From Chitinophaga pinensis (lineage in GTDB: Bacteria > Bacteroidota > Bacteroidia > Chitinophagales > CAMDFR01): a stretch of DNA of 64,000 nt. The DNA lies in NCBI GenBank assembly GCA_945860705.1, contig CAMART010000005.1, positions 1 through 64,000 on the forward strand, written 5' to 3'. Below, one piece after another: positions 46,767 to 53,108 of this stretch. The first letter of the stretch is position 1, and every line of letters starts with the position of its first letter. The position numbers were made by a program, and so were the translations under genes. The notes beneath the pieces were generated by a model. The model saw only the letters and a program-made list of their open reading frames with translations, searched no databases and was not told the DNA's origin.

Positions 46767-46799
46767 ACAAATATACTAAATACAGATATCAATCCGCAA
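46767..46799 (-). promoter_or_regulatory. Promoter of the DUF4143 ATPase gene
   Basis: Minus strand: TTG at 46797-46799, 21 bases, then TATATTTGT at 46767-46775. Both elements fit the Bacteroidota consensus. The -33 TTG lies inside a 15-bp copy (46790-46804) of the arm of the adjacent palindrome, so the same sequence may be a regulator site. Confidence 0.65.
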
Positions 46800-46855
46800 T
46801 ATTTATACAAATTTTACGATTCAATCCGCAATATTTAGCTAAATATTGCGGATTG
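46790..46855. promoter_or_regulatory. 34-bp perfect palindrome plus an extra half-site
   Basis: The sequence at 46822-46855 is a perfect palindrome with arms CAATCCGCAATATTTAG / CTAAATATTGCGGATTG. A third half-site, CAATCCGCAATATTT, lies at 46790-46804 in the same orientation as the left arm. It probably forms an operator of the DUF4143 gene, or a recombination or insertion site. A related TAAATATTGTGGTTGG is found near 51764-51783. Confidence 0.7.
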
Positions 46856-47993: not shown

Positions 47994-48047
47994 TAATTTA
48001 ATAAAATTCATGTTGTATATTTGATAAAAATAAATAATATAATAAAA

Positions 48048-48845
48048 ATGGAAACGAAGAATAAGTTTAGAGAAATTGAAGTTTTGCCATTGATTAATTT
48101 AGATAATATAGATATTAAAGTTAGTACATTCACTGAGAAAAAAATTACATTTAAAAATGAAGAACAATATAGAGAAGTAATTGGAAAACTACAAAATATT
48201 ATTAATAAAAACCCTAATGCTATTGTTAAGACAAAAGTTGGCAATATGCAAACAGTTACAACACGTATTAAAAGTACTAAAAATAAGAAAAAAGTATTTA
48301 TGTTTCCAGAACCAAATCCAGTATGTATTTATTATAATAGCGCCATTAAGCATTTGGAGAATAGCAACTTAATAAAAAAAGACTTGTTTGAAGTGAAAAA
48401 CGGATTTAATTCTAATGATAATTTTGTGGAGTTTTCTAAATATTATTCAGAAATATCACAAGGAATTATTTTACTTGTAACAACATTGGAAGGATTCTTA
48501 AATCAGTTATTGCCAGATGATATTGAATTTTTATATTTAGAAAAAAAACATAATAAATCACATATTGAAATGCTTGATATTTCGACTAAAATAAGAAAAG
48601 TGGTTAAGCATTTACATAATATTGATTTCTATGTAACAAATCCTACTGAATACGACAATATTTCTTTGCTTGTTAATTTAAGAAATGATTTAGTGCATTT
48701 AAAAACAAATATCAAAAGCAATTTAACGGTCTATCAAGATTTATATAAAAGATTGATTGATATTGACCTTATAAATATATCTGAATCGGTCTTTATTTTT
48801 ATTAATAAAATAGTTCCAAATTATTTTATAGAAAAATCATTATAA
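48048..48845 (+). CDS. Putative HEPN-motif protein
   Basis: A 265-residue cytosolic protein, Lys/Asn-rich and A/T-rich in codon use. I do not recognise a named family. The C-terminal half is predicted all-helical (ISQGIILLVTTLEGFLNQLLP and onward), ending with R212-N-D-L-V-H217-LKT. The R-x4-6-H motif on a helix is the catalytic signature of HEPN RNases found in toxin, defence and RNA-processing proteins. The N-terminal 120 residues form a separate unknown domain. An ATG at 48048 is preferred over a TTG at 48021. A small gene follows 21 bases downstream and may be its partner. Confidence 0.6.
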   Translation: METKNKFREIEVLPLINLDNIDIKVSTFTEKKITFKNEEQYREVIGKLQNIINKNPNAIVKTKVGNMQTVTTRIKSTKNKKKVFMFPEPNPVCIYYNSAIKHLENSNLIKKDLFEVKNGFNSNDNFVEFSKYYSEISQGIILLVTTLEGFLNQLLPDDIEFLYLEKKHNKSHIEMLDISTKIRKVVKHLHNIDFYVTNPTEYDNISLLVNLRNDLVHLKTNIKSNLTVYQDLYKRLIDIDLINISESVFIFINKIVPNYFIEKSL

Positions 48846-49278: not shown

Positions 49279-50274
49279 ATGACAGGCGACAATAAAAAAG
49301 AATACTTGTTAACCCCAATTGGCTCGACTAACATAGAAAGAGTGAGTAATAGCTTGGCTATTACTCAAAAAATTTTGAACGAAACACAACAAAGACTTGA
49401 CCCTCTGCAATGGTGGCAAAGTGTAGATGATGAAATGAAAATGGTATTCTATGGTAATATTAAATATAGTGAAGAGATTAAAAAGGATTTTCATTGTGAT
49501 GTTTTATATTCAAAAAGAAAACTATTAGAAGAACATATAGAAGCTATAAAAAATTTAGATATTGTAATTATAAAAAATATATTGCAATTAAAATATCTTC
49601 ACGCAAGTGGATTTAATTTAACTAATATAAAATATATAAAGGAATTAAACAATATAACAAAATTGTATTTAAATTCCAGTGAATTATCTGATATTAGTTC
49701 GCTTGCCACATTAAATAATTTAACATATTTATCTTTAAGTTCTAGTAAAATATCCGATATTAGTCCTCTTACTTCATTAACAAATTTGATAGAACTAGAT
49801 TTAAATTATAATGAAATATCGGACTGTAGACAGCTTAACTCATTAATTAATTTAACAACCTTAGGTTTGACCGCTAATAAAATATCCGATATTAGTCCGC
49901 TTAACAAGTTAATTAATTTGACATCTTTAGGTTTATTGCTTAATCCAATTTCGGATATTAGTCCGCTTACCTCATTAATTAATTTGACAAACCTAAATTT
50001 AGGTTATAATGAAATATCGGATATTAGTGAACTTAAATCATTAACAAATTTGACTGAACTAAATTTAGACTATAATCAGATATCAGATATAAGTCCACTT
50101 ACATCGTTAACTAAATTAACACGTTTAAGTTTTGTCAATAATCAAATATCTGATATTAGACCACTTGCAACATTAACTAATTTGAAAGAACTACATTTAG
50201 GTTTTAATCCAATATCAGATCAACAGAAAGACTATTTAAGAACTAAATTACCAAATTGTCTTATTAAATACTAA
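49279..50274 (+). CDS. Cytosolic leucine-rich-repeat protein
   Basis: A 331-residue protein without a signal peptide. Residues about 1-105 form a separate helical domain (LTPIGSTNIERVSNSLAITQKILNE ... WWQSVDDEMKMVFYGN). It is followed by nine 22-residue leucine-rich repeats with consensus LTNLTxLxLxxNxISDISPL, the internalin/SDS22 type, and a short cap (DQQKDYLRTKLPNCL). Repeats are also near-identical in DNA (AATATCCGATATTAG-like), so repeat number may vary by recombination. LRR proteins recognise other proteins; lack of export suggests an intracellular partner or prey. It starts 97 bases after the small gene and ends 18 bases before the PLD-J gene. Confidence 0.85.
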   Translation: MTGDNKKEYLLTPIGSTNIERVSNSLAITQKILNETQQRLDPLQWWQSVDDEMKMVFYGNIKYSEEIKKDFHCDVLYSKRKLLEEHIEAIKNLDIVIIKNILQLKYLHASGFNLTNIKYIKELNNITKLYLNSSELSDISSLATLNNLTYLSLSSSKISDISPLTSLTNLIELDLNYNEISDCRQLNSLINLTTLGLTANKISDISPLNKLINLTSLGLLLNPISDISPLTSLINLTNLNLGYNEISDISELKSLTNLTELNLDYNQISDISPLTSLTKLTRLSFVNNQISDIRPLATLTNLKELHLGFNPISDQQKDYLRTKLPNCLIKY

Positions 50275-50292
50275 TTTTACTAATAATAATAA

Positions 50293-51639
50293 ATGCAAAC
50301 TGAAGCAGTATTTGAAAATATAGCTGAACGGATTCAAGTGGAAATTAGCAAGGCGCAGAAATCTATTTTTATTGCCGTTGCTTGGTTTACCAACAAGAAT
50401 CTTTTTAATGAAATAGTAAACAAAGCAAGAAACAGCTGTACCGTTTCGCTCATTATTTCTAATGATGATATTAACCTTAATTCAGCTATTGATTTTGAAC
50501 AGTTACTTACTTACAAATCGAAAGTATATAAAATCGGTAATGGTGATATAGAATTAATGCATAATAAATTTTGTGTTATTGATTATAGTACGGTCATTAC
50601 AGGTTCTTACAATTGGAGTTATAAAGCAGAAAATAATTTTGAGAATATAATCATTACAAGTAATGATACAACACTAGCCGAACAGTTTATCACAGAGTTT
50701 AATAATATTCGTAGACATTATTATCCAGATGTAGTGAATGAAGAAATTGTTTTTCCATTAAATAAAATCATTAAGCGATTAGAAATCCTCAACAATTATA
50801 TACTGCTCGAGGATATTGAAGAGTTGAAAAAGGAAACCTCAAAACTTAAGGAATACGATTTTAACTCCGACTTACAAGATATTATTCTTGATGTAAGGAA
50901 AGAAGAATTTGCATCAGCAATTAGTAAAATTCAAAGTTTTATTTCAAAAAATAAGCAACTTTCCATCTGGACAGACCCTGAAATTGCAGCACTCAAACTT
51001 GAAATCAAGAATTTAGAAAACCAACTAAATGGATATGACAATGAAAAGATAGAACTTGAAAAGTTACTTTCTGATTTTCAACATCGCCACACGATTGAAT
51101 TAGGAGACATTATACTTGATATTTTGAAATTGCGTAAACTGAAATTCAAAGAAGATAAAACAAAATATGAAGAAGCTGAAAATGACGAAAAGCAATATCG
51201 TGAACAATTCAACACCGAAAAAGAGAAGGAAATTTTTGAACTAACAGAGGAGCAAAAATTAGAGCTCAAAAAGAAATTTAGGAAAGCGACCATTTTATGC
51301 CATCCAGATAAAGTGGCTAATGAATTTACGGAAGCAGCCCAAAGAATTTTTATTGAACTAAAGCAAGCATATGATGCAAATGATTTAAAAAAAGTATCTG
51401 ATATACTTGAAGAACTGGAGAAAGGCAATTTCTTCAAGAATAAATCTGATACAATTCAAGAAAAAGACTTATTGAAAGCAGCTATTGCTAAATTAAAAAG
51501 ACAGATTAAAACTCTTGAAGCAGAAATTATTACCATAAAGGAAAGTGATACGTTCAAGACAGTAATCAGTATAGAAGATTGGGACGAATATTTCAACATA
51601 ACAAAGGAAAAATTAAAGCGAGAGCTTGAAGAACTATAA
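50293..51639 (+). CDS. PLD nuclease - coiled-coil - J-domain fusion protein
   Basis: A 448-residue protein with an unusual domain order. Residues 1-145 form a phospholipase D-like domain with a single HKD motif, H90-N-K92-x4-D97-x6-G104-S-x-N107, the form of bacterial Nuc-type endonucleases that act as dimers. Residues about 160-315 are helical and coiled-coil. Residues about 318-372 form a J-domain with the His337-Pro-Asp339 tripeptide in ATILCHPDKV and a helix III-like segment QRIFIELKQAYDAND. A further coiled coil follows (KAAIAKLKRQIKTLEAEI). A J-domain would recruit DnaK to the nuclease. Only 18 bases separate it from the LRR gene. Confidence 0.82.
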   Translation: MQTEAVFENIAERIQVEISKAQKSIFIAVAWFTNKNLFNEIVNKARNSCTVSLIISNDDINLNSAIDFEQLLTYKSKVYKIGNGDIELMHNKFCVIDYSTVITGSYNWSYKAENNFENIIITSNDTTLAEQFITEFNNIRRHYYPDVVNEEIVFPLNKIIKRLEILNNYILLEDIEELKKETSKLKEYDFNSDLQDIILDVRKEEFASAISKIQSFISKNKQLSIWTDPEIAALKLEIKNLENQLNGYDNEKIELEKLLSDFQHRHTIELGDIILDILKLRKLKFKEDKTKYEEAENDEKQYREQFNTEKEKEIFELTEEQKLELKKKFRKATILCHPDKVANEFTEAAQRIFIELKQAYDANDLKKVSDILEELEKGNFFKNKSDTIQEKDLLKAAIAKLKRQIKTLEAEIITIKESDTFKTVISIEDWDEYFNITKEKLKRELEEL

Positions 51640-51820: not shown

Positions 51821-52126
51821 ATGTTACAAACTACTTTAAAAATAATTCTTTCTATATTATTACTAATCTGCCTTTTTGATATGCCCTACGGCTATTTTCA
51901 ATTGGTTCGCTTTATTGCGCTTTTATCTTTTGGCTTTTTAGCATACATTTCTTACCAAGAAAACAATAATCTATTTACAAGTATTTATGTTAGCTTGGCT
52001 ATTCTGTTTCAGCCTCTAATGAAAATAGCTCTAGGAAGAGAAATTTGGAATATAGTAGATGTAATAGTTGCATTATTCTTAATTGTATCTATATTCTTAA
52101 AGAATACATCTATTATGAAATCTTAA
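51821..52126 (+). CDS. DUF6804-like small membrane protein
   Basis: A 101-residue protein with three to four hydrophobic helices. The phrase CLFDMPYGYFQLVRFIALLSFGFLAYISYQE and PLMKIALGREIWNIVDVIVALFLI match the DUF6804 pattern of small Bacteroidota and proteobacterial membrane proteins of unknown function. The conserved Arg and Gly residues are in the loops. It lies 180 bases after the PLD-J gene, so it is probably not in the same transcript. A GAGTCT-cc-AGACTC hairpin lies 23 bases downstream (52149-52162). Confidence 0.8.
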   Translation: MLQTTLKIILSILLLICLFDMPYGYFQLVRFIALLSFGFLAYISYQENNNLFTSIYVSLAILFQPLMKIALGREIWNIVDVIVALFLIVSIFLKNTSIMKS

Positions 52127-52277: not shown

Positions 52278-53108
52278 ATGACGATGGCAAAAAACAAAAA
52301 AATAAATGTACAAGGATTAGATATCGTTATCTATCAAGAAAAAGAAAGTGATTATATTTCGCTTACTGATATTGCAAGGTATAAAGATGCCGTTAATACA
52401 GATTCAATTATTCAAAACTGGATGAGAAATAGAAATACAGTTGAGCTTCTAGGCTTTTGGGAAACTATTTATAATCCAAATTTTAAACCCCTCGAATTCG
52501 AGGGGTTTAGAAAACAAGCTGGATTAAATAGTTTTGTGTTAACACCTAAAAAATGGATAGAAACCACCAATGCAATAGGCATAGTTTCTAAATCTGGAAG
52601 ATATGGTGGCACATTTGCTCATAAAGACATAGCTTTAGAATTCGCCTCTTGGATATCTATTGAATTTAAACTCTTTGTAATCAAAGAATTTCAGCGTCTA
52701 AAAGAAGTTGAAAATAATCGTATGCAATTAGAGTGGAATCTGCAAAGAACTATTTCAAAAATAAATTATCGAATACATACAGATGCTATCAAAGAGAATC
52801 TAATACCTGTTGCAATCAATAAAGCACAAATAAATTTTATATATGCAGACGAAGCAGATCTATTGAATGTAGCACTATTTGGCATCACAGCAAAACAATG
52901 GAGAGAGCAAAACCCAACAGAAAAAGGTAATATAAGAGATGAAGCCACCATAGAACAGTTGGTAGTGCTTAGCAATATAGAAAGTATCAATGCATTGCTT
53001 ATCTCACAAGGGTTGGCACAAAAAGAGAGGCTTATTCAGCTCAATAAAGTAGCTATTGCTCAAATGAAATCATTGCTTCTAAATACTACTATCAAAAAAC
53101 TAAAATAA
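52278..53108 (+). CDS. KilA-N domain protein
   Basis: A 276-residue DNA-binding protein. Residues about 8-140 form a KilA-N domain (YISLTDIARYKDAVNTDSIIQNWMRNRNTVELLGFWE; GLNSFVLTPKKWIETTNAIGIVSKSGRYGGTFAHKDIALEFASWISIEFKLFVIKEFQRLK), a fold of phage and large DNA virus origin. A helical C-terminal part (150-276) is shared by Bacteroidota members. No clear catalytic residues. The gene starts at ATG 52278 in an ATGA overlap with a four-codon upstream frame, and its leader is shared with the next gene. A perfect 26-bp palindrome lies inside the coding sequence (52484-52509). Confidence 0.88.
   Translation: MTMAKNKKINVQGLDIVIYQEKESDYISLTDIARYKDAVNTDSIIQNWMRNRNTVELLGFWETIYNPNFKPLEFEGFRKQAGLNSFVLTPKKWIETTNAIGIVSKSGRYGGTFAHKDIALEFASWISIEFKLFVIKEFQRLKEVENNRMQLEWNLQRTISKINYRIHTDAIKENLIPVAINKAQINFIYADEADLLNVALFGITAKQWREQNPTEKGNIRDEATIEQLVVLSNIESINALLISQGLAQKERLIQLNKVAIAQMKSLLLNTTIKKLK

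Follow-up and report, generated by a model that had tools for sequence, protein, structure and literature searches.

Modular conflict systems in which sensors and effectors are combined through adaptor segments are already known (PMC7159879). For example, in the EAD-coupled ternary conflict and GAP1-N2 systems, short adaptor segments join variable repeats to effectors, and in some of these systems DnaJ is fused to a component (PMC7159879). An NLR-like defense protein, bNACHT25, needs host DnaJ as well as the contact that DnaJ makes with DnaK (PMC12169576). Moreover, sections of two further papers report TerY-P, a triad of the vWA protein TerY, a PP2C and an STK, as an anti-phage system, and these sections mention no J-domain hub (PMC7699616, PMC11090510).

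The stretch of DNA analyzed here (64,000 nucleotides, hereafter the window) encodes a protein, which we call the hub, that combines a PLD/HKD domain with coiled coils and a J-domain in one chain, together with an adjacent partner protein that begins with a short tag. EADs act homotypically, whereas the tag is found in the window's partner only and is not detected in the PLD-J hub itself, so the arrangement is not a homotypic one; nor was a vWA-MoxR or GTPase core seen next to the pair. As in the hub proposal developed below, infection recognition, DnaJ/DnaK and DNA degradation belong to one proposed pathway for bNACHT25 (PMC12169576), but bNACHT25 uses the host's own DnaJ, whereas the hub has a J-domain built in and no NACHT ATPase. 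Several hub members share operons with genes of the TerY-P kind, while the window genome holds no TerY at E 1e-15, and hence no such triad. Nuc, NucT and Zucchini (PLD6) resemble hub residues 1-145 in their single HKD motif and fold (Z 18-19), yet they are stand-alone nucleases, whereas the PLD domain of the hub is fused to other modules and can be absent. The hub has in common with J-domain co-chaperones (PF00226) an HPD loop between two helices, a basic helix II and conserved aromatic and leucine positions in helix III; it differs from them in its sub-threshold Pfam score, its weak helix I, the position of its J-domain between coiled coils and a partner supplied in trans by the tagged protein. 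Finally, DrmC of DISARM has a PLD domain in common with the hub (PADLOC E 3.6e-8), but the hub scores 13.2 bits against a cut-off of 133 for the NCBIfam DrmC equivalog. No description of a PLD-J fusion or a J-hub system was found in the open-access literature, and a bacterial gene pair with a constant J part, a tag carrying interchangeable recognition domains and an optional nuclease has apparently not been described so far.

A conserved fusion of PLD and J domains

An initial annotation of the window had proposed that a PLD-family nuclease domain and a DnaJ-type J-domain occur in one polypeptide. This fusion is real and conserved, as judged from its Pfam match to PLDc_2, a DnaJ profile-profile match at 96.8% and the existence of full-length homologs. 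The gene is present as a single copy in the window genome, and the AF2 model of the 448-aa protein has a mean pLDDT of 79. Its features are as follows.

50293..51639, + strand: PLD-J hub protein, 448 aa (PLD 1-145, MID 146-230, CC1 231-312, J 313-380, CC2 381-448)
50293..50727, + strand: PLD/HKD nuclease-type domain, residues 1-145 (PLDc_2 E 3.1e-22; Nuc/NucT/Zucchini fold, Z 18-19)
50560..50613, + strand: catalytic motif H90-x-K92-x4-D97-x6-GSxN107, invariant in 36/36 PLD-bearing members
50983..51228, + strand: coiled coil CC1, residues 231-312 (AF2 helix 229-284), part of the module retained in PLD-less loci
51229..51432, + strand: J-domain, residues 313-380 (DnaJ matches in 25/25 members; hhalign 96.8%)
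51301..51309, + strand: HPD tripeptide, residues 337-339, in 50/50 members
51433..51636, + strand: coiled coil CC2, residues 381-448 (AF2 helices 390-417 and 430-447), retained in PLD-less loci

Residues 17-139 match PLDc_2 (PF13091) in Pfam at E 3.1e-22, with 79.3 bits against a cut-off of 27, the N-terminus is also matched by NucT profiles, and its sequence neighbors in the PDB are Zucchini, NucT and Nuc. The HKD residues do lie in a PLD fold: the modeled residues 1-145 match Nuc (1byr) with Z 19.3 and an rmsd of 2.2 over 141 residues, NucT with Z 18.6 and mouse Zucchini with Z 18.0. FAM83 structures and SACK1 are also among the matches of this domain. The motif H90-x-K92-x4-D97, followed by G104-S105-x-N107, occupies the positions first assigned to it; HKD is invariant in a 25-row alignment, and HKD together with GSxN is complete in all 36 of the wider set of PLD-bearing relatives. 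In Nuc-type enzymes the HKD domain acts as a dimer.

The J segment is matched at lower scores. Residues 322-361 match DnaJ (PF00226) at E 1.5e-5 and 25.4 bits, which is below the Pfam cut-off of 27.8. The same family matches the J segments of 25/25 aligned relatives (best E 2.6e-7), a profile of those segments retrieves solved J-domains at 1.9e-5 to 2.2e-5, and in hhalign the match to a set of four ordinary J-domains, which includes the window genome's own DnaJ, reaches 96.8% with E 2.4e-10 over 51 columns. The PDB sequence neighbors of residues ~322-375 are the J-domains of auxilin and DnaJ. In the AF2 model the segment forms a helix (319-335), the HPD loop and two further helices (343-361 and 365-377), with helix I weak or replaced. 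When the J segment was modeled in isolation (pLDDT 66), Foldseek and VIA-align matched it only to designed bundles and SCIN-type three-helix bundles with weak E-values (best E 0.36), and a J-fold was absent among these matches. The assignment of a J-domain is thus upheld by sequence profiles and by the helix-HPD-helix arrangement, but not by structure search of the isolated segment. Coiled coils on both sides of it, as had been suggested, are seen in the model as long helices (229-284 and 390-417), one on each side.

The tripeptide H337-P338-D339 is likewise where it was first reported, and HPD is kept in 50/50 J-proteins. Within the 25-row alignment, where identity falls as low as 45%, HPD is invariant, the F-R-K region preceding it is invariant or nearly so, and F329-R330-K331 and F353 are invariant or conserved above 90%. 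These residues align with the positions at which DnaJ is known to contact DnaK, namely the aromatic-basic-basic run before HPD and the phenylalanine of helix III. A chance occurrence of HPD is ruled out by its invariance across relatives. Recruitment of Hsp70 by the hub is plausible, given the invariance of HPD and of the basic helix II and the presence of a DnaK gene in the window genome, and the fusion is, by its sequence, catalytically intact at both motifs (HKD and HPD).

A partner protein with an N-terminal tag

The lone fusion protein was dropped as the whole finding after its tagged partners surfaced. Across Bacteroidota, the gene that flanks the hub gene varies by locus, yet the start of its protein is alike. 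In the window, this gene and its tag are located as follows.

49279..50274, + strand: tagged partner, 331 aa, N-terminal tag plus leucine-rich repeats, 18 bp upstream of the hub gene (tag E 3.3e-21; LRR_4 E 2.2e-38)
49279..49401, + strand: putative docking tag, about residues 1-41, ~40 aa (consensus SLIPI...LVRVgNSIeITNKILsE)

Alignment of the partner genes gives a consensus of N.SLIPI....LVRV.NSI.ITNKIL.E over ~40 aa. The domains behind the tag were classified with Pfam for representatives and from sequence and clustering for the remainder. They are leucine-rich repeats in the window, L011, L020, L023 and L028; WD40 in L002, L003, L005 and L006; a PQQ propeller in L009; TPR in L007, L008, L012-L014, L016, L017 and L019; FISUMP in L004, L010 and L026; tryptophan-rich 'LPWS...KWDW' repeats (W-repeats) in L018, L021 and L029; PrimPol plus an RNase_T exonuclease in L024 and L025; and WG repeats in L125. 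The tryptophan-rich repeat, LPWSxELIxKYxxKWDWxxLSxN, has no convincing Pfam match and was observed at L018:9366-10550, L021, L029, L130:4975-6294 and L078:708-2048.

The tag profile finds 32 places in 25 of the 29 hub-holding genomes, every one of them adjoining a hub gene or lying at a contig end, and a second tag in one genome (G399) pointed to a second hub (L073). Among 395 sampled Bacteroidota genomes the tag occurs in one, which is the window genome; there it is found at 49279 only, plus one non-significant place. With a widened profile, itself trained on many of the sequences counted, 46/46 tagged genes of the collected loci are co-directional with the hub gene, 23 upstream and 23 downstream, mostly at -20 to +50 bp. 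The original 25-row profile, which was not trained on them, detects the tags of L116-L120, L122 and L123 at 5e-4 to 3e-10. The hub gene is typically accompanied by genes for one to three tagged proteins; at one hub locus (L015), no tag is present within its ~12 kb.

Constant and exchanged parts

Nine further distinct loci (L115-L123) comprise seven with tagged partners and two, L115 and L121, in which vWA and PP2C genes take their place. A PLD domain is missing from the hub in six of these seven tagged loci. Such hubs keep MID-CC-J-CC in L117, L118, L119 and L122 and only CC-J-CC in L120 and L123, and HPD is intact in all PLD-less members. No PLD remnant was found by tblastn in six PLD-less loci, which excludes a frameshifted PLD there, and at four of these loci (L129, L130, L132 and L133) the gap to the neighboring gene is too short to hold one. 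Because J-module and tag persist together in six loci devoid of PLD, the tag follows CC-J-CC and not the nuclease. The constant unit is therefore the coiled-coil-J-coiled-coil region plus the tagged partner, and the nuclease is optional. It follows that the original description of the protein as a nuclease with a J-domain stands for the fusion and its two intact motifs, but not for the unit as such, whose tagged partner lies outside the coordinates first given and had not been linked with the J-module. The earlier idea of a nuclease with a chaperone recruited to its target fits better if it is the tagged partner, and not the nuclease, that specifies the target.

The recognition domains differ even between loci whose hubs are closely similar. 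Two loci (L002 and L004) have hubs that are 96% identical and tags that are 78% identical, followed by WD40 in one and FISUMP in the other, without real similarity; the hubs of the window and L002 are 89% identical, with LRR against WD40 partners. Among members of the window's genus, identity is 92% for the hub and 56-61% for the LRR region, which also varies in repeat number (331, 374 and 442 aa), and two adjacent partner paralogs in L011 are 93% identical over the tag but 57% over the LRR. An IQ-TREE phylogeny of the CC-J-CC region, with an uncertain root and many poorly resolved deep forks, requires 21 changes of partner class and three of PLD presence. Tag and hub thus stay associated, and it is the recognition domains that are swapped. 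We hold these organizational claims, namely the architecture, the tag-hub association, the domain exchange and the optional PLD, with high confidence.

Distribution and signs of mobility

One scan of GTDB genomes yielded 29 related loci. Almost every one is full length, and wherever the title tells, the source is a member of Bacteroidota; many of the collected loci derive from MAGs. Hub members occur in 14/395 class genomes in the sample (E 1e-40). Several relatives in distant lineages are 85-89% identical to the hub, for example in a Lunatimonas isolate (86%) and a Paludibacter MAG (87%), and this high identity therefore suggests that the hub gene has moved by horizontal transfer. A congener, labeled Saprospirales (L011/G423), has a hub 92% identical to that of the window. 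An alignment search recovered two full-length members on IMG/VR contigs, one near endolysin genes and the other near an integrase gene, whereas a scan of IMG/VR with the single window protein gave no members. Plasmid and phage records gave matches to the PLD domain only, none spanning 80% of the hub.

Two disrupted loci were observed. In one genome (G154; L033, L078) the PLD-J gene is apparently split, with an N-terminal part followed by a transposase end, and the C-terminal hub part and a tagged partner begin another contig. In Tenacibaculum piscium (L027:8001-9406), PLD residues 1-260 are joined to a tag-like remnant, LRR lies in another frame and the J-domain is lost, so that this hub is probably degenerate.

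Neighboring genes

At four loci, TerY-P-type triads stand in place of the tag gene: PLD-J genes (L135, L087 and L136) and a CC-J-CC gene (L076) have vWA, PP2C and kinase genes in the same cluster. PADLOC recognizes TerY, PP2C and STK_OB in L135 and L076 and TerY plus STK_OB in L087, and the vWA/PP2C set of L136 is too divergent for its TerY and PP2C profiles. TerYs from J-free settings start with the vWA domain (MAYSAEISR...), and those of L135, L087 and L076 have 31-37 extra N-terminal residues. The possibility that this extension is the tag was rejected, since the similarity is significant for L087 only (3/2000 shuffles) and not for L135, L136 or L076.

Two genes near the window pair might be accessory.

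51821..52126, + strand: DUF6804 small protein, probable accessory, directly 3' of the hub gene (PF20619 E 2.2e-32)
48021..48845, + strand: possible HEPN-type accessory with RNDLVH, a weak candidate (HEPN_Apea E 0.006, below cut-off)

DUF6804 also adjoins hub genes in L010, L011 and L135, in the last case with DUF4407, and is possibly a membrane protein, given its hydrophobic sequence. At 52278-53108, the window encodes a KilA-N protein with a full-length match to PDC-S22 (E 1e-136), and neighbors of other loci match HEC-01A/B, PDC-S15 and PDC-S32; the PDC and HEC entries of PADLOC are candidate systems. A scan for defense genes that covered 130 neighbors gave a table filled by kinase profiles. 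A Ser/Thr kinase gene was observed upstream of the tagged partner, which is of the WD40 or FISUMP class, in four near-identical loci (L002:5583-6962, L003, L005 and L004:361-1740).

Proposed mechanism and alternatives

We see about an even chance that the two genes form a modular conflict system, probably directed against phages, built around the J-domain hub and employing DnaK and HKD steps. A role in phage defense is inferred from neighborhood, mobility and modularity. In such a system, the tag would dock on the hub at its coiled-coil/J region, and the repeats (in the window, LRR) would bind a cue or target, for instance a product of the phage or a host protein that has been perturbed. Through its HPD, the J-domain would then engage host DnaK, which would remodel the bound target or complex. 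In forms with PLD, the released and dimerized HKD domain, sited beside the coiled coils, may cleave nucleic acid; in forms that lack PLD, the action of the chaperone or some other effector would have to suffice. In some members, the TerY-P kinase/phosphatase triad might feed the hub instead of the tagged repeat. A chaperone step in phage sensing is plausible because bNACHT25 needs DnaJ and its contact with DnaK (PMC12169576).

More tentatively, the hub may define a new bacterial immune class in which swappable repeat receptors, docked through a universal tag, would steer host Hsp70 onto proteins or complexes of the invader, with the nuclease or kinase triad as optional output. If true, this would constitute plug-and-play recognition, with one constant hub that recruits the chaperone and a docking peptide on which LRR, TPR, WD40, FISUMP, WG and propeller domains can be mounted, and a design centered on a J-domain and docked by tags would count as a new class if its function were shown. 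It would also make testable whether Hsp70 takes an active part in phage defense or is no more than a host factor under guard, and how immune effectors exchange repeat receptors, a process for which the tag could serve as an experimental handle in laboratory strains.

Alternatively, the hub could be a specialized Hsp70 co-chaperone with interchangeable client adaptors, engaged in proteostasis or in RNA or ribosome quality control, with PLD clearing client-bound nucleic acid. The J-module is invariant where the nuclease is not, HPD is intact in 50/50 members, and TPR, WD40 and LRR are frequent as client adaptors. Housekeeping genes, however, would not be expected to show the patchy spread (14/395 class genomes at E 1e-40) and high identity across distant orders seen here, nor the divergence of repeats within a genus, the IMG/VR copies and the TerY-P neighbors, and we consider this explanation unlikely. 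Less likely still is that only a structural remnant of a J-domain is left, a spacer of three helices whose HPD turn no longer works with DnaK, so that the system would be a plain sensor-nuclease pair. Such a remnant would account for the DnaJ score under the Pfam cut-off, the weak helix I and the lack of a J-fold in Foldseek/VIA-align, but not for an HPD and preceding F-R-K that are invariant, or nearly so, down to 45% identity, for HPD being kept in PLD-less members, where a spacer would drift, or for the hhalign value of 96.8%.

A selfish or toxin-antitoxin-like mobile unit, with the hub as toxin and the tagged protein as neutralizer, is very improbable: the two-gene co-directional layout, the mobile distribution and the contigs with integrase and endolysin genes suit it, whereas the diversity of partners, their number of up to three per hub and their long repeats suit recognition over neutralization. 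Equally doubtful is a membrane or scaffold output, with an HKD domain that has a phospholipid as its substrate or serves for binding only, as FAM83 proteins do: the FAM83 structures and SACK1 among the matches and the frequent proximity of DUF6804, possibly a membrane protein, suit it, whereas the complete HKD and GSxN in 36/36 and the best fold and sequence neighbors, the nucleases Nuc, NucT and Zucchini, speak against it.

Other observations

Proteins consisting of a solitary J-domain and coiled coil were found in conserved chromosomal settings (L077, L081 and L088; L046, L047, L049 and L052), and one such group adjoins a WD40-like protein of 751 aa. It is possible that these are housekeeping relatives of the hub. 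By eye, R-x4-H motifs are visible in unrelated neighbors, as RNDLVH in the window, RCGLLH at L018:10551-11180 and RNNLYH at L024:10792-11676; these genes are reminiscent of HEPN RNases, the sole Pfam score being the sub-threshold one of the window gene. The flank of the window locus also carries a short 32-bp tandem repeat at 46772-46845.
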